Of a DNA stretch of 35,280 bases, positions 7,087-14,622 are shown piece after piece (the stretch's first letter is position 1; each line of letters starts with the position of its first letter). A program made the translations under genes and the position numbers. The DNA comes from a virus. Location: the IMG/VR virus record IMGVR_UViG_3300035698_009801, positions 1 to 35,280 of that record. One strand, 5' to 3'. The notes below the pieces were generated by a model, which was not told the DNA's origin, did no database searches, and worked only from the letters and a program-made list of their open reading frames with translations.

Positions 7087-7388
7087 TCAATTTCCTCATG
7101 ACTTAATATTATTTTGATTCCTTTTGGTGGTTGCCCGTTCATTTCTAAATTAGCACCTTCACCACGGATAATAAAAACATGTGTGTCTTTATCACTCCAA
7201 ATTAATCTAGTTAATTGCTCAAGATAAGATATGTCCTGCTCTTCAGCTAATTTACAGATGATATAATTAATAAGATCGTTTACTTTATCCTGTCTTGAAT
7301 TAGATACTAAAGCCCCTGCAAATCCCTCTAAATCAATAGTAGTATGAGGAACATTCTCATCCCATAAATCATGTATTGAATAACTCAT
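7083..7388 (-). CDS. Phage protein of unknown function between polymerase and clamp loader
   Basis: 101 residues, no recognised motif; acidic with a helical middle (DKVNDLINYIICKLAEEQ) and a final beta-rich part (HVFIIRGEGANLEMN). ATGA overlaps join it to the polymerase upstream and the clamp loader downstream, and GGAGG lies about 10 bases before the start. Position suggests a role in the polymerase-clamp machinery, for instance a small clamp-loader subunit like T4 gp62; the sequence itself does not show this. Confidence 0.55.
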   Translation of the reverse strand: MSYSIHDLWDENVPHTTIDLEGFAGALVSNSRQDKVNDLINYIICKLAEEQDISYLEQLTRLIWSDKDTHVFIIRGEGANLEMNGQPPKGIKIILSHEEIE

Positions 7389-9883
7389 ATCTTGTATTCC
7401 TCCATATCAAACCAGTTCCCGTTTACTTTACTGGTTTTAATTTCTACTGATAAAGGTACGTTAATCCAGTCATACTCTTTTCGGACTCGCTTTGTCATAA
7501 CGTCTTGAATCAAAGGTGCTAACTCTTCTAACTCGTCAGGGTGTACGTCAAACATCATTTCATCATACACCTGTAAACACACTTGGCTTTTCCAGCCTTG
7601 TGTTCTAGTCTCGTGTTCTAGCTCTATTAAAGACCATAAAAGAAGATGGAAAGCAGTTCCTTGAAATGGATAGTTAACAACGTTCTTCCTATCCAGCACG
7701 CCGGAACATCTAAATCCGGTCAAATACTCAACGTAACCCAATTCTAGGTAACGCTCCCAGGCTTCTGCTTTCCACTTATCAAATACTTTAAACTTTTCTT
7801 TCCAGAAAATCCTTTCCTCTTCTCTTACGTGATCTTCAAAATGCTTATAGGTTTTGATTCCCTGGTCATATAGATGATCTTTTAATAGATAACATTCCTC
7901 ATCATTAGTTTCTAATTTTCCAGCAGAATCCCATAATCCTTTAGCGCAAGCCCTCCAATAGTCACCATAGAATTGAGGAAAAATAAATTGATTCTTAGAA
8001 CTATAACGAATTTGTTTTGTTATCTGATCAGGATGAAGTTTAAATAACCTCAAAGCTTGATCCCTGTGCATATCATTAGCTGGATTAGTAACATAATCAA
8101 TCATTACTGGGTCTTTATGATAAAAGCATCCAGAACACACCTCAACACCGCTATAATCTACAGTTAACAGTAAATGTCCTTTCCTTGGTATAACACCTGT
8201 ACGCACGAGCTTTTGCATCTCTTCATCTCTTTTAGGAATGTTGGCAAAGTTCGGAGATGTGGTGCTTGGTCTGTACGTTTTGGTAGTATGTAAGTTCTGG
8301 TTAGGATGAATAATCCCTGATATGGATTCCCGAAGAAAACCTTCAACATAAGTTCCTTTTACTTTGTGCGTTTCTCTATAAGTAATAATATTATTAAAAA
8401 ATTCATTCTTTTCACCTAACCCTTTTAACACTTCTTTATCAACTGAAGCTTTTCCTTTTGTTGTTTTCTTGTTTATCTTCAGTTTAAGGACGTTTAAAAC
8501 GAGTTTCTTTACTTGATCACTACTTAGTATGTCTAGGTTCTGTTTTTCGGTTTTAAGCCACTTTAAATGCTCCTTAGAGGTGTAAATAAGCTCTTCTGTA
8601 TCGTTTAGTTTATCCTCTAACTCTTTATGCGTTGCTTTAAAGTAATCCTCATCAATCCTCATTCCATTTTCGGTAACATTAGCCAGTGCTAACATACCGT
8701 CAAAAAAGAAATCATATTGATCATCAAGTCCTTTTTCTTTTAGCTTCTCTATCTGATCCATTGTTAATCTATAACCAAACATTGAATCAAGAGCGTTATA
8801 ATGCAGAAGCTTATCCATTGGGGCTAGATGGATATTATTTAATCTATTATCAGATTTTTCATCTTCACCCTCTTTAGTGACGGTTAGATACTGCTTCATT
8901 TCATCATCGTAACCCGCTACACCATAATTGATATAGGTTTGGAATTTTAACCCGCTTATATGTGTCCGGTTATCTAGTACGTGACAAGCCAACATAGAGC
9001 AAAAGGCATTTCCTTCTACTTCAAAGCCTAAAACATGCCTTGTCCACTTTTGTTCAAACCCGATATTATGAGCTGTCTTTTTAATACTATGATTAGCTAA
9101 TACTTGTTTTAATTCATCGTGGAAAGTATCATTGTCGAAGATAGGAAAAGAAACACAAGAAAAAGGATCGACGGCAAAAGAAATAGAATAAAGTTCTTGC
9201 TCTTCTCTATAAGGTTTAAGACCAGTGCCTTCATAGTCATAGGATATCCATACTGGAAAGGATTCAGATAATTCATAACGTAAATAGTTAATAGCCTCTT
9301 TAACATCTATAATCACCCTGATATCTTCTTTATGTACAACAAAAGGTTTATTATGATCTAAAGCGTTTACTAAATGATCAGCAAATACATATTCCACCGC
9401 TTCATTCTTATGTCCTTTTACAAAGTCAATTTCAAATAAAGGAAATACCCAACATTGATAGTCCTGATCCGGTATAGCCCAACCAACCCACCTTTCCATC
9501 TTCCCAATATCATTCATACGATCACCAACAAACGCCTTAACCGCTGTATGACCTAATAACAATATCTTTTCTGGTTTAAGCTCTTTAACTAGGTCTTGCC
9601 ATTGTTTTCTACAACAATTAATAGTTTTATTAGTCACTGAGCCTTCACATTGTACTACTGAGCTGAACCAGCAATCTGAAGGGTCAAGTCCATTATCTTG
9701 TAGTTGGGTACTTAACCAAGCCATATGTTCTAAAGATAAAAACTTTTCAGTTAATACTAATATCTTTTTATGACCTGCGCTAGTTACTTTCCTTTGTGTA
9801 GACTTATCTAAAGGACAAGACCTACAATCATGTTTTACTTTTGGTTTTTTAACTTCTACTTTTTCTATCTGGAAGAAAGGCAT
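7385..9883 (-). CDS. Family A DNA polymerase with N-terminal UDG-like domain and 3'-5' exonuclease
   Basis: 832 residues. N-terminus (about 15-180): a family-4 uracil-glycosylase-like fold with CRSC at 20-23, C79 and C90/91 in the spacing of the Fe-S ligands, and LKPEKILLLGHTAVKAF. The catalytic GE-x-PG loop is replaced by LTEKFLS, so it is probably non-catalytic. Exonuclease: DYEGTG (D216, E218), HNIGFEQ (Glu where Asp is usual) and YNALD (Y362, D366). Polymerase: motif A VDYSG (D576), motif B RYSSKNQFIFPQFYG (626-640), motif C YDEM (D774). This is the replicative enzyme. I recall a similar UDG-like fusion in SPO1-type phages. The start lacks a Shine-Dalgarno sequence and overlaps the end of the MKIY unit at 9865. 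Confidence 0.92.
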   Translation of the reverse strand: MPFFQIEKVEVKKPKVKHDCRSCPLDKSTQRKVTSAGHKKILVLTEKFLSLEHMAWLSTQLQDNGLDPSDCWFSSVVQCEGSVTNKTINCCRKQWQDLVKELKPEKILLLGHTAVKAFVGDRMNDIGKMERWVGWAIPDQDYQCWVFPLFEIDFVKGHKNEAVEYVFADHLVNALDHNKPFVVHKEDIRVIIDVKEAINYLRYELSESFPVWISYDYEGTGLKPYREEQELYSISFAVDPFSCVSFPIFDNDTFHDELKQVLANHSIKKTAHNIGFEQKWTRHVLGFEVEGNAFCSMLACHVLDNRTHISGLKFQTYINYGVAGYDDEMKQYLTVTKEGEDEKSDNRLNNIHLAPMDKLLHYNALDSMFGYRLTMDQIEKLKEKGLDDQYDFFFDGMLALANVTENGMRIDEDYFKATHKELEDKLNDTEELIYTSKEHLKWLKTEKQNLDILSSDQVKKLVLNVLKLKINKKTTKGKASVDKEVLKGLGEKNEFFNNIITYRETHKVKGTYVEGFLRESISGIIHPNQNLHTTKTYRPSTTSPNFANIPKRDEEMQKLVRTGVIPRKGHLLLTVDYSGVEVCSGCFYHKDPVMIDYVTNPANDMHRDQALRLFKLHPDQITKQIRYSSKNQFIFPQFYGDYWRACAKGLWDSAGKLETNDEECYLLKDHLYDQGIKTYKHFEDHVREEERIFWKEKFKVFDKWKAEAWERYLELGYVEYLTGFRCSGVLDRKNVVNYPFQGTAFHLLLWSLIELEHETRTQGWKSQVCLQVYDEMMFDVHPDELEELAPLIQDVMTKRVRKEYDWINVPLSVEIKTSKVNGNWFDMEEYKI

Positions 9884-10030
9884 TTTTTTATATAATTAAA
9901 TAAGTTTACCATTACACCATGTTTATCTTTTTCTAAAAAATAATAAGATATTAAAATTGCATTTAAATGATGCTCATATATATATAGAGTGTTTCTTTTC
10001 CGGATGATTCCCAGCTAAATATATTTTCAT
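9865..10030 (-). pseudogene. MKIYLAG unit 3, frame broken at a TA tract
   Basis: ATG at 10030 overlaps the clamp stop (ATGA). The in-frame product is only 18 residues (MKIYLAGNHPEKKHSIYI), stopping at 9974 inside a TA tract (9976-9986). In another frame the sequence goes on as YEHHLNAILISYYFLEKD, then VNLFNYIKKC, to a stop at 9865 inside the polymerase start. One extra TA would join the parts into a product of about 55 residues. It resembles units 1 and 2 (11091-11305, 11000-11155). I recall that related phage TGT-like proteins begin with an MKIYLAG segment of this kind. Confidence 0.55.
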
Positions 10031-11028
10031 GTTTCTGCTAATAAGGAAATGATGTGATTGAATTTATCACCTTTAAATAAAAATGAGCTCCCCCCGATAA
10101 TAACAGTTTGCAGATACTTTAAAATATCTATAAAATGATCAGGGTGGATTTTGATAGTAATCGGTTCAGCATCCCACTTTATTTTAATAGTCTCTTCTAT
10201 GTGCCCGGCTGTCCCTTTACTCTTGCAGATTAGTTTATTCTTTTGGAAATCCAGCTCGATAAACTTATCATGATCAAACTCAGCTGAAACAAACACACCA
10301 GTTCTATCTATTGTCTCTTCTAAGTTTTTCGGGAATTCCACTTCATTGCCATCAACATCAAATAAAGGTGAAATATCAGGATAATCAACTTCCATTAAAC
10401 GGCAGCTAAAAATAGTACCCGCCTCATTAGTAAAGTGAATCCAAGCTTTATCTATAGCGTATTCAATAGGATTATATTTTATTAGGATATGAGCTGATGA
10501 GCCGTTTAAAAAGAATTGCTTTTTTATTTTGGAATCTAGTTTGTGTTTGGTCGCTCTGTAGTTATCACAAGACAGAACATGGTTATCAACCACATTAAGG
10601 CAGGTTAAAGCCGGTCTGGTCATATCATTACTGACAGAAAATAAACTGAATCTAATAGCCTGATTGAAGTTAGCAGGAAGATCCATCCATTTTTCTGGCA
10701 GTATTATTTCAGGTATTTTTATCTCTGTTTCTATTGCTATTGATGCTTTTGTTTTACCTGATTTAATAAGCAACTGATTATGTTTTACAACCATATCAAC
10801 TTCATCTTCTTTAAGCTTATCAAGTAACCTATAGAAAGCCTGTTGTGGTATGGCTATTCCTTCTAATCCTGTTTCTAGTTGCTGACTGATTGTTATCTGA
10901 TCGTTGTAGGTGTATATCTCACCAGCTTCAAAAATAAAATGGGTTGATTGTTCCACCATCTCATTATTAGCTAGTCCTGGTTTGATCAGGGATAAGGTGT
11001 CAAGTAATTCTTTTCTTTTTATTTTCAT
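10027..11028 (-). CDS. Sliding clamp (DnaN-like)
   Basis: 333 residues. MKIKRKELLDTLSLIKPGLA and TYNDQITISQQL match the first domain of DnaN-type clamps in phages, and CRLMEVDYPDIS is the conserved R-x-x-x-x-x-Y-P segment near the last domain. Repeated beta-alpha segments with a short acidic third domain fit a three-domain beta clamp; the length is slightly under the bacterial 366. It encircles DNA and tethers the polymerase. The start has no Shine-Dalgarno sequence (an A-rich TATATAAAAA run precedes ATG) and lies inside the end of MKIY unit 2, so translation may be coupled to it. Confidence 0.82.
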   Translation of the reverse strand: MKIKRKELLDTLSLIKPGLANNEMVEQSTHFIFEAGEIYTYNDQITISQQLETGLEGIAIPQQAFYRLLDKLKEDEVDMVVKHNQLLIKSGKTKASIAIETEIKIPEIILPEKWMDLPANFNQAIRFSLFSVSNDMTRPALTCLNVVDNHVLSCDNYRATKHKLDSKIKKQFFLNGSSAHILIKYNPIEYAIDKAWIHFTNEAGTIFSCRLMEVDYPDISPLFDVDGNEVEFPKNLEETIDRTGVFVSAEFDHDKFIELDFQKNKLICKSKGTAGHIEETIKIKWDAEPITIKIHPDHFIDILKYLQTVIIGGSSFLFKGDKFNHIISLLAET

Positions 11029-11155
11029 TTTTTATATATTCCAGTCTGTGTTTAAAAACATCATAATAAGTTAATAAAAAATTGAAAGCTCTATCCTTTA
11101 TAAAGTCCTTGTTCTTTTCTATCGGGTGACCATAACCTGCTGTGTATATTTTCAT
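11000..11155 (-). CDS. MKIYTAG unit 2 (51 aa, intact)
   Basis: Reads MKIYTAGYGHPIEKNKDFIK, then RAFNFLLTYYDVFKHRLEYIKNE, ending KKKRIT. It has the same start and the same layout as units 1 and 3: an aromatic middle and an F/Y-x-IK end. It has no long TA tract and is open throughout. The end overlaps the clamp start by 29 bases, and its beginning overlaps the shifted-frame end of unit 1. Function unknown. Confidence 0.55.
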   Translation of the reverse strand: MKIYTAGYGHPIEKNKDFIKDRAFNFLLTYYDVFKHRLEYIKNENKKKRIT

Positions 11156-11305
11156 TGTGTTCTTTTATTAGATTAAATGATTCAAGAACTGAAAACTGAT
11201 TATTCATGATATCCCAAAAGCTCAATAGTCTGTTTCTATATATATATATATCCATACTTTTTCTCTTTTAATCATCCCTGCTGTCCCCGCCATGTATATT
11301 TTCAT
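11091..11305 (-). pseudogene. MKIYMAG unit 1, frame broken at a 15-base TA tract
   Basis: ATG at 11305 overlaps the stop of the TGT-like gene (ATGA). The frame-0 product is 27 residues (MKIYMAGTAGMIKREK..), stopping at 11222 just after the TA tract at 11237-11251. In the -1 frame the protein continues as YRNRLLSFWDIMNNQFSVLE, then SFNLIKEHNENIHSRLWSP, to a stop at 11091. Removing one TA (or adding two) makes a single reading frame of about 70 residues. The continuation looks like real protein, so this is a recently broken or phase-variable gene. Confidence 0.55.
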
Positions 11306-12141
11306 AATCCAAATCCTGTGTTAGTTTTTCTTTTGAACGCCCACGGCCATTGAGGTAACGCTTTTTCAAGATCCATATAGTAAATAATATTTATTTCATC
11401 TCTTTTTTTATAATCCTCAGCCAGTTCATCTAAAGTATAACCATTTTCAGTGATGTACTTTTTTACTATGTTTTGTCTTGATTCTGATAAAGTTTTAAAA
11501 GGTTTTCCCTCTTCTTTTAAAGCAGGTGATTTTTCTGATACTGATATTAACCACGCCTTTTCATCATAAATCCATTCATTATTTTTTAAGCTAGGCATAA
11601 TAATAGCACCATTTCGGGCGTGAATAGCCCAAGTAGTTGAGTCAACAGAATACCATGGGTATCTAAGCATGATAGGCAGGGCTGTAACAGCAAAGCCGTG
11701 AAACTTAACTTTCGGCATCCCTTTTTCATCACATACGACGGGCATACATCCATCAAGCCATTTAATCTTTTCTGGTGTTCGTCTATCATTAGCAGGGGAC
11801 AATCCAATATAAGGGATTTCATCAACCATCTTCTTTAACCACTTCATATTTTCACCCATATGAAAAACATGAATTAGCTTTTCTTTAGGTATTCCTTTCT
11901 TTAGCATGTAATAATAATTATCATATCCTTTAGAAGCTGAATCTTCTTTCATTTGCTCAGTGATGTTTTTATGGCCTGGATAGCCTGGTATAATATCAAG
12001 GTTAACCACATAAGAAATATGTTCAATGTTATCTAATGAAAATTTAATGTATTCATCCAGATCAATAGTAATCTTTTTAGTCCATGCTGAAAAAGCACCT
12101 GAGTCTAGTATTAATGATATTTTTTTATTTTTCATAATCAT
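11302..12141 (-). CDS. TGT-fold protein, candidate DpdA-like DNA transglycosylase
   Basis: 279 residues. LILDSGAFSAW (D13) matches the DSGGFQ catalytic segment of tRNA-guanine transglycosylases. VVNLDIIPG (D49), IGLSPANDRR (112-121) and YSVDSTTWAIHARNG (D167; 175-178) match further TGT motifs, including the nucleophile Asp followed by A-R-N-G. The zinc motif of bacterial TGT is not seen. In phages such paralogues (DpdA) place 7-deazaguanines into DNA. The upstream neighbour is a VUT/YhhQ-type transporter of queuosine precursors, which supports a deazaguanine role. No Shine-Dalgarno is visible; a GNRA hairpin sits just before the start. Substrate (DNA or tRNA) is not decided by the sequence. 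Confidence 0.6.
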   Translation of the reverse strand: MIMKNKKISLILDSGAFSAWTKKITIDLDEYIKFSLDNIEHISYVVNLDIIPGYPGHKNITEQMKEDSASKGYDNYYYMLKKGIPKEKLIHVFHMGENMKWLKKMVDEIPYIGLSPANDRRTPEKIKWLDGCMPVVCDEKGMPKVKFHGFAVTALPIMLRYPWYSVDSTTWAIHARNGAIIMPSLKNNEWIYDEKAWLISVSEKSPALKEEGKPFKTLSESRQNIVKKYITENGYTLDELAEDYKKRDEINIIYYMDLEKALPQWPWAFKRKTNTGFGL

Positions 12142-12165: not shown

Positions 12166-12666
12166 TTATTTATTTTTTGAAAATTTATTAGAAAAATATC
12201 TGATGATCCAGAACCACATAGCTCCTCCTAATGTTTTAACTAACCATTCTAGCAAAATCATTAAAGGCATAAACTGCCCAAAAGCTATAGTTTGGAATAA
12301 TATGGTGTCTGCACCTGCACTGACAACATTAGACCCATTTACTTTTAAGAACCTACTCTTTTTATCAAGTAAATGATACACAACACCATCAATAACTCCA
12401 GCAACTGCAAAAGCAGTAAAAGAAGCTAAAGCAATTGATCCGGCATCCTTATTGAACAAATAAGAAATGATTGATCCTGAGCCTATCAACAAACCCATTT
12501 TCCATACTAAACCTTTTCCTTTCCATGCTTCATGCAAATGATCTCTAGCTGTTAAATCAAGACCAATAAATAAAAATGCAGTTAAAATGGAAGATATTAT
12601 ACCATACTGAGCAACCAGTAAATTAGCAGCTACAATGGCGCCTAAATACATAATAATATAAATCAA
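12166..12666 (-). CDS. VUT-family membrane transporter (YhhQ-like, queuosine precursor)
   Basis: 166 residues, with about five hydrophobic segments: IIMYLGAIVAANLLVAQYG, ILTAFLFIGLDLTARD, MGLLIGSGSIISYL, IALASFTAFAVAGVIDGVVY and the final GAMWFWIIRYF. The segments GLDLTARDHLHEAW and VNGSNVVSAGADTILFQTIAFG are those I recall from VUT/YhhQ-type preQ0/preQ1 transporters. It sits in the inner membrane and would supply the base for the adjacent TGT-like protein. I chose TTG at 12666 as start because GAGG lies close upstream; the next ATG at 12651 is too far from it and would cut into the first segment. Confidence 0.75.
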   Translation of the reverse strand: MIYIIMYLGAIVAANLLVAQYGIISSILTAFLFIGLDLTARDHLHEAWKGKGLVWKMGLLIGSGSIISYLFNKDAGSIALASFTAFAVAGVIDGVVYHLLDKKSRFLKVNGSNVVSAGADTILFQTIAFGQFMPLMILLEWLVKTLGGAMWFWIIRYFSNKFSKNK

Positions 12667-13977: not shown

Positions 13978-14622
13978 TTAAAGGCTGTTTAAACCTGCTT
14001 CTATTATATTGGGTTTTAAATAGTCGCCTAGCTTATAATTGCTATTTTTTCCTTTTGGATAACTTTCTATTTTATAATTAAGTGCTTTTATAACTTGTTT
14101 TTTTAGTGTTTTTCTAGCAATAGCAAAATAGATGTATCTGTGTTTAGATGACCTAACTTTTCTTAGTCCTTTTTGGGCATCATTTTTATAGTGCCTAGAG
14201 TGTTTATTTCCTTCCGTGTATTTATCAGTTCTTTTTTTAGTAGCACCAGTATAAATAAAGTTACATGCTTGATAAATATATCCATTGTGGTTCATTTCTG
14301 TATCACTATAGGAAACAATGATTAGATTTTCTTGTTTTAATCTCCTTAGACATGCAGAAACAAAAGCACTTAATTGCTCTTTTAATGAACCGACACGACA
14401 CAACCTATTTAATTCATAAACCATAGATGAAAATTCTTTTCCACAAACACCAGTACAAAGTGAACTTGAAGCCGGTTTCCCAAAAGTACATACAGCTACT
14501 AATATGCCCCTAATATACCAACCAAACGCCCACGATATTGAAGGTATTCTTCCTGAATAATGACGGGGTAATAAAAAATCTTTGGCTGTTTTATAATCTA
14601 TTATTAATATCTTGCCCCTCAT
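13978..14622 (-). CDS. Mom-like DNA adenine modification protein
   Basis: 214 residues. I recognise the pattern of the Mom family (GNAT fold; in phage Mu Mom carbamoylmethylates adenine in DNA): LPRHYSGRIPSISWAFG at 18-34, then LVAVCTFGKPAS, ELNRLCRVGSLKEQLSAFVS and VSYSDTEMNHNGYIYQACNF, FIYTG. It would add a hypermodified base and protect phage DNA from restriction. It lies directly downstream of the helicase gene. A tandem AAAGGAGATG repeat spans the helicase stop and this start; the first copy gives a ribosome site 10 bases before ATG at 14622. Exact modification cannot be read. Confidence 0.72.
   Translation of the reverse strand: MRGKILIIDYKTAKDFLLPRHYSGRIPSISWAFGWYIRGILVAVCTFGKPASSSLCTGVCGKEFSSMVYELNRLCRVGSLKEQLSAFVSACLRRLKQENLIIVSYSDTEMNHNGYIYQACNFIYTGATKKRTDKYTEGNKHSRHYKNDAQKGLRKVRSSKHRYIYFAIARKTLKKQVIKALNYKIESYPKGKNSNYKLGDYLKPNIIEAGLNSL

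Follow-up and report, generated by a model that had tools for sequence, protein, structure and literature searches.

The DpdA Locus of the Window

The window analyzed here is the whole stretch of 35,280 nucleotides (nt) at positions 1 to 35,280 of IMG/VR virus record IMGVR_UViG_3300035698_009801. It encodes the catalytic core of DpdA, a TGT-like DNA transglycosylase, together with three small reading frames (units 1, 2 and 3) that start with MKIYxAG and lie 3' of that core. The features of the locus, in the direction of the genes, are as follows.

11302..12141, minus strand: catalytic core of DpdA (TGT-like DNA transglycosylase), phrog_887 E = 8e-52; its first strand is beta3 (LILDSGAFSAW)
11091..11305, minus strand: unit 1, a class-1 module (MKIYMAGTAG...RLLSFWDIMNNQFSVLESFNLIK); its frame is lost after a TA tract and its ATG overlaps the core stop codon (ATGA)
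11237..11251: frame-change tract of unit 1, (AT)7A, ATATATATATATATA, read from the sequence; a shift confined here costs no score
11000..11155, minus strand: unit 2, of the GYGHPIEK class, an intact reading frame of 51 amino acids that overlaps the clamp start
10027..11028, minus strand: DnaN-like sliding clamp, phrog_947 E = 3e-31
9865..10030, minus strand: unit 3, a module whose frame is lost after a TA tract; it begins at the stop codon of the clamp gene and ends within the start of the polymerase gene
9976..9986: frame-change tract of unit 3, (TA)5T, TATATATATAT, from the sequence and the placement of the shift
7385..9883, minus strand: family A DNA polymerase, 3' of unit 3, PF00476 E = 6e-51

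The original prediction had described three MKIYxAG units, two of them broken at TA tracts, and a check of the sequence and its open reading frames returned the same coordinates, frames and tracts. The frames from ATG 11305 (unit 1) and ATG 10030 (unit 3) are open until the tract, and another frame takes over after it. The motif occurs three times in the window and not once in 200 third-order Markov resamples. All three units matched a single profile built from 83 sequences of other phages, none from the window, for which the maximum in a reversed-DNA control was 13 bits; the proposed similarity among the units was thereby borne out. Allowing one frameshift raised the score of unit 1 from 20.3 to 59.5 bits and that of unit 3 from 14.9 to 49.6 bits, and the intact unit 2 scored 33; for both broken units the optimal shift position was inside the TA tract. 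With a second profile (HMMER), five pieces of the three units were each recovered separately; this profile includes unit 2, so its match to that unit is partly circular.

Unit 1 was assigned to the TPGIxxRExxWQ...RLLSYWDI class and unit 2 to the GYGHPIEK class. Unit 1 is 57–64% identical to intact class-1 modules, and its post-tract part, which had been described as still protein-like, is 62–78% identical to intact orthologs. Its ATG-to-RLL distance is 74 nt, compared with 72 nt in intact class-1 modules. Unit 2 is 51% identical over 41 amino acids to L090:6339. The common IK end that had also been noticed is genuine in unit 1 (conserved ...FxLIK), whereas the tails beyond it (NENIHSR...) are an out-of-frame reading of the MKIYxAG start of the next unit, because the units overlap.

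The Units Are a Detached N-Terminal Segment of DpdA

The units correspond to the first quarter of the DpdA TIM barrel (beta1-alpha1-beta2), present as detached, duplicated copies: the core lacks this segment, relatives carry it fused, and profile alignment and fold model agree. The start of the window core at beta3 was also obtained from alignment with the DpdA proteins of 9g, Dp-1, Vid5 and L002. A model of the core (pLDDT 85) likewise begins at a later strand and has TGT 2pot as its best PDB match (E = 1.8e-4), and in models core-only DpdA is without two of the eight barrel strands. The window core is thus not a complete barrel in one polypeptide, its N-terminal strands being in separate units. 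It is 33–34% identical over 89–96% to the DpdA of Edwardsiella phage vB_EpM_ZHS (ZHS), Vid5 and Dp-1, and the histidine of KVHGFG/KFHGFA, invariant in the DpdA alignment, is H148 in the window and H196 in 9g; this residue sets DpdA apart from DpdA2 (PMC6884629). A Pfam search of the core gave no TGT match, and phrog_887 is named 'queuine tRNA-ribosyltransferase'. TGT (Zymomonas mobilis 2pot and others) has a similar core fold but, unlike window DpdA, is one intact barrel and acts on tRNA.

A link of the MKIYLAG segment to the N-terminus of related TGT-like proteins had been drawn in the original prediction, and such proteins do begin with it. L002, a relative with a polymerase 70% identical to that of the window, has a full DpdA ('MKIYYSN...ILISYYKL...LFLDSGAFSAF') with the clamp directly after it and no separate units. 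The DpdA of L038 reads 'MNIYLAGTPGIRSRERLWQKITKRRLLSFGDI...ELFLDSGAFSAW', and the window has its units as stand-alone frames 3' of the core. A hidden Markov model of fused DpdA N-termini recovered stand-alone units, and the stand-alone unit profile aligned with an isolate-phage DpdA profile at DpdA residues 1–48 (E = 3e-6, probability 88). Class 1 itself occurs in both forms, fused to the core (L038) and stand-alone (L057 and L031). In the structure predicted for the L038 fusion (pLDDT 88.6, pTM 0.87), the module forms a strand (residues 2–5), a helix (12–21) and a strand (24–28), and a further helix precedes the first strand of the core (55–59).

The units matched no family in Pfam and PHROGs searches. 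Nucleoside 2-deoxyribosyltransferases can also have an MKIYLAG-like start, but an origin from these enzymes was rejected because of a second motif (RLLSYY) and because the segment occurs fused to DpdA cores. A nucleoside 2-deoxyribosyltransferase gene does lie close to the DpdA gene of ZHS.

Module Arrays in Other Phages

An alignment query yielded 80 DpdA loci, many with the N-terminal segment fused and many with it separate. Modules were searched for with a frameshift-aware profile that excluded the window units, at a threshold of 20 bits. All module calls rest on this one profile; modules like those of ZHS are diverged, some falling under the threshold, and all arrays but one are from uncultured contigs. 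The search yielded 143 modules of at least 20 bits, up to six per locus, with a start-to-start spacing of mostly 140–200 nt. Stand-alone units were detectable at 37 of the 63 loci where no fused module was detected, and 12 of 26 fused-DpdA loci had extra modules. Modules sit either 5' of the core, where they are able to enter its frame, or 3' as small overlapping genes, and among the 29 units starting at the core stop codon 24 overlap it by ATGA, as does window unit 1. Several classes recur across phages, among them TPGIxxRExxWQ...RLLSYWDI, ATWLxDxxLGxSLTKKKA, GGMTVxNVKGREREL and GYGHPIEK. The association with DpdA is tight: a query with units only found 18 loci, every one of them adjoining a DpdA core, and across whole contigs (up to 140 kb) nearly every unit was clustered at the DpdA locus. 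Neither single-protein scans (window DpdA, L002 DpdA) nor a search for MKIYMAGTA as an exact DNA pattern returned new relatives, and unit queries against isolated phages gave no useful match. In one contig (L083/L112, 2185 and 3057) two DpdA-like cores follow one another, and an N-terminal module lies upstream of each.

ZHS (OM621816) was the sole isolated phage found with the split arrangement. As in the window, its DpdA is annotated without the N-terminus, and a separate downstream module, ORF62 ('MKIFLAG...ILVSFFFY'), is annotated as a hypothetical protein; an (AG)6 tract lies just 5' of the core. At L005:5870-6030 of this phage, an in-frame upstream module (MILWPGG...RERE...) with the (AG)6 tract is skipped by the annotated DpdA start, and the real gene may exceed its annotated length. 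The DpdA of 9g-type phages (Queuovirinae; Hutinet et al., 2019, PMC6884629) resembles that of the window in its catalytic core, its invariant residues including the KVHGFG histidine, and the order of the genes (dpdA, then clamp, then DNA polymerase), and the window units are homologous to the first ~50 residues of the 9g-type protein. In contrast to the window, the 9g module is fused, single-copy and part of a protein of ~310 amino acids, and module arrays were not seen.

Repeat Tracts, Frameshifts and Selection

In many modules a simple repeat lies between beta1 and beta2: a homopolymer of G or A, or one of the dinucleotide tracts (AG)n, (TA)n and (CT)n. In 9.7 kb of module DNA there were 25 dinucleotide runs of 9 nt or longer, compared with 17 in 570 kb of surrounding DNA, an 86-fold higher density in modules than in neighboring DNA (P about 2e-39). 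Such a run was present in 17 of 121 intact modules, whereas 500 rounds of synonymous shuffling with local codon usage gave a mean of 2.0 and a maximum of 6. The variation in tract kind suggests that the amino acids (RERE, YIYI, LSLS, GGG) follow from the repeat, and not the reverse.

Frameshifts were found in 20 of the 143 modules, with a single lesion and no stop codon in 19 of these 20. Long tracts were more frequent in broken modules (12 of 20) than in intact ones (19 of 121; Fisher P = 7e-5). Beyond the shift, each of the five broken 5' modules passes into the core frame, and at L102:3900-4030 a (CT)8 tract lies directly between an N-terminal module and a DpdA core that are in different frames. 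These cases suggest that tract length determines if the product is the core by itself or the core plus its module. Inspection by motif of about 80 loci revealed no DpdA core with a frameshift; this inspection did not extend systematically to other genes.

Intact modules are mostly under strong purifying selection. The ratio of nonsynonymous to synonymous substitution rates (dN/dS) was 0–0.17 in most intact ortholog pairs and 0.39 in one, and could not be computed for several pairs with saturated synonymous sites; the modules of L066 and L068 differ by 6 synonymous and 0 nonsynonymous changes.

Tract Length in Four Sister Phages

Four sister contigs (L137, L138, L139 and L142) are 88–92% identical over most compared stretches and form a group other than the close kin of the window phage. 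In this group a difference in tract length among close relatives was seen: the (GA)n tract at one position in the class-1 module entering DpdA measures 17, 17, 11 and 19 nt, and the second strand lies 74, 74, 68 and 76 nt from the ATG, compared with 72 nt in nearly all intact members. None of the four modules is in frame, and two different frames are represented among them. The sequence after the tract is nonetheless conserved, with proportions of nonsynonymous (pN) and synonymous (pS) differences of 0.006 and 0.298, against 0.009 and 0.432 in the core, i.e., equal constraint. The conservation of a sequence that every sampled relative has out of frame implies that it is often translated, for which either switching or recoding can account and decay cannot. 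A search for further alleles of the group returned only the four known contigs.

A Probable Split, Phase-Variable DpdA

We consider it probable, at roughly 60%, that DpdA is split in these phages, with interchangeable modules, and phase-variable through simple sequence repeats (SSRs). The gene would be divided into a catalytic core (beta3–beta8) and a set of exchangeable N-terminal modules, one of which at a time may complete the barrel in trans. Slipped-strand mispairing at the tracts would, judging from the pattern of repeats and frames, place a module in or out of frame, so that in the window phage unit 2 would be ON and units 1 and 3 OFF. Phage DpdA inserts 7-deazaguanines, which block restriction enzymes (PMC6884629). 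In the least certain steps of this proposal, another module may confer another substrate or DNA-sequence preference of 7-deazaguanine insertion, and such varied insertion may diversify the protection of the phage from host restriction. The N-terminal strands of TGT-type barrels border the active site, and their variation could therefore alter substrate or site choice. An extended form of the proposal, in which one core combines with a repertoire of half-domain modules, all individually switched by slippage, to make a combinatorial phase-variable enzyme that leaves progeny differently marked and lets some escape restriction, is offered more tentatively.

The original prediction had left the choice between a phase-variable and a decaying family. 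Phase variation is favored by the tract enrichment, the single lesions, the sister tract lengths and the conservation on both sides of the tract. The pattern resembles bacterial SSR contingency loci (Neisseria, Campylobacter, Haemophilus; phase-variable restriction-modification enzymes; PMC4889913, PMC11868660), in which mono- or dinucleotide tracts in coding sequence switch the frame by their length and DNA-modifying enzymes are affected. Here too, tracts in coding sequence exceed chance and tract length differs among relatives (the L137 group) with a change of frame; unlike the bacterial loci, the system is phage-encoded and consists of many tiny paralogous modules of one enzyme.

Several observations weigh against a split, phase-variable DpdA. 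The shift could be placed inside the repeat tract in 17 of 20 broken modules, but 58 of 120 random windows of tract size (48%) also held it, and attribution to the exact tract is limited because the helix region is weakly conserved. The fused L038 model matched only generic TIM barrels in the PDB, weakly (E > 0.03). No unit was detected at 22 of the 63 loci scored as core-only, some of which have a diverged in-frame module while others may lack any, and four isolate phages are also among these loci, three with a diverged N-terminus missed by the profile. No near-identical pair of contigs with differing tract lengths was found; L065 and L068, which are near-identical, differ by indels, none of them within a module. 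Finally, the out-of-frame state of all four sisters fits recoding as well.

Under recoding, the ribosome or RNA polymerase would slip at the tract and a fixed share of the product would join both halves, which for 5' modules would give both fused and core-only DpdA. Frameshifted proteins made in this way are frequent in phages, the post-tract part is out of frame with MKI...AG in 4 of 4 sisters yet strongly conserved, and 5 of 5 broken 5' modules continue in the core frame. We nevertheless regard recoding as unlikely, given that the shift needed varies among class-1 members (+2 in L017, L137, L138, L139 and the window; +1 in L140, L142 and L143; none in ten others), as does the tract type (AG, TA, CT, G, A). 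No conserved slippery heptamer was noticed, and equally long tracts occur in intact modules.

The many classes in one phage, which exceed the need of one enzyme, and the extra modules beside fused DpdA could instead indicate independent small proteins (regulators, inhibitors or anti-restriction peptides) derived from the DpdA N-terminus that do not complete the enzyme. This, too, appears doubtful, as core-only DpdA would be left short of two of eight barrel strands, and the modules have retained the motifs of both strands, are concentrated around DpdA and in many cases begin right on the DpdA stop codon.

Decay, with redundant copies being lost and repeats as the first site of indels, would agree with two of the three window units being out of frame and with the several copies per genome, which hint at redundancy. 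It is improbable in view of dN/dS far under 1 in most intact pairs, the absence of a second lesion in 19 of 20 broken units, the identity retained by the post-tract half of unit 1, and tracts in intact units far above synonymous expectation. Assembly or sequencing errors, to which (TA)n and G8–9 tracts in metagenome contigs are prone, are highly improbable, since no frameshift was seen in DpdA cores at the roughly 80 loci inspected by motif, tract-bearing modules are mostly in frame, and the main anomaly is the tracts themselves.

Neighboring Genes

Two further genes lie 5' of the core.

12166..12666, minus strand: Vut_1/QueT-like transporter, PF02592 E = 7e-13, 5' of the DpdA core
13978-14622, minus strand: Mom-like DNA modification protein, PF25680 E = 1e-29, phrog_1384 E = 5e-55

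The transporter is probably an importer of a 7-deazaguanine precursor. In L002, genes resembling QueD, QueE, QueC and FolE, named by eye, occupy its place (L002:2991-6173), and salvage appears to replace precursor synthesis in the window phage. With the Mom-like gene, the window phage has a second DNA-modification gene near DpdA. The polymerase (7385-9883, minus strand) has an N-terminal UDG-like stretch, weakly matched by PF03167 (E = 6e-5, just under the cut-off), before its exonuclease and polymerase domains.

Implications

DpdA and SSR phase variation are each known already; the literature searched, in which subscription journals were little covered, contained no phage example of exchangeable, phase-variable barrel modules. 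The units represent a family of small phage proteins new to Pfam and PHROGs. If the proposal is true, phages would generate diversity in the modification of their DNA with contingency repeats of the bacterial kind, and separate small genes could provide a TIM barrel in exchangeable pieces. Phages would then have a route to vary their anti-restriction chemistry within one burst.
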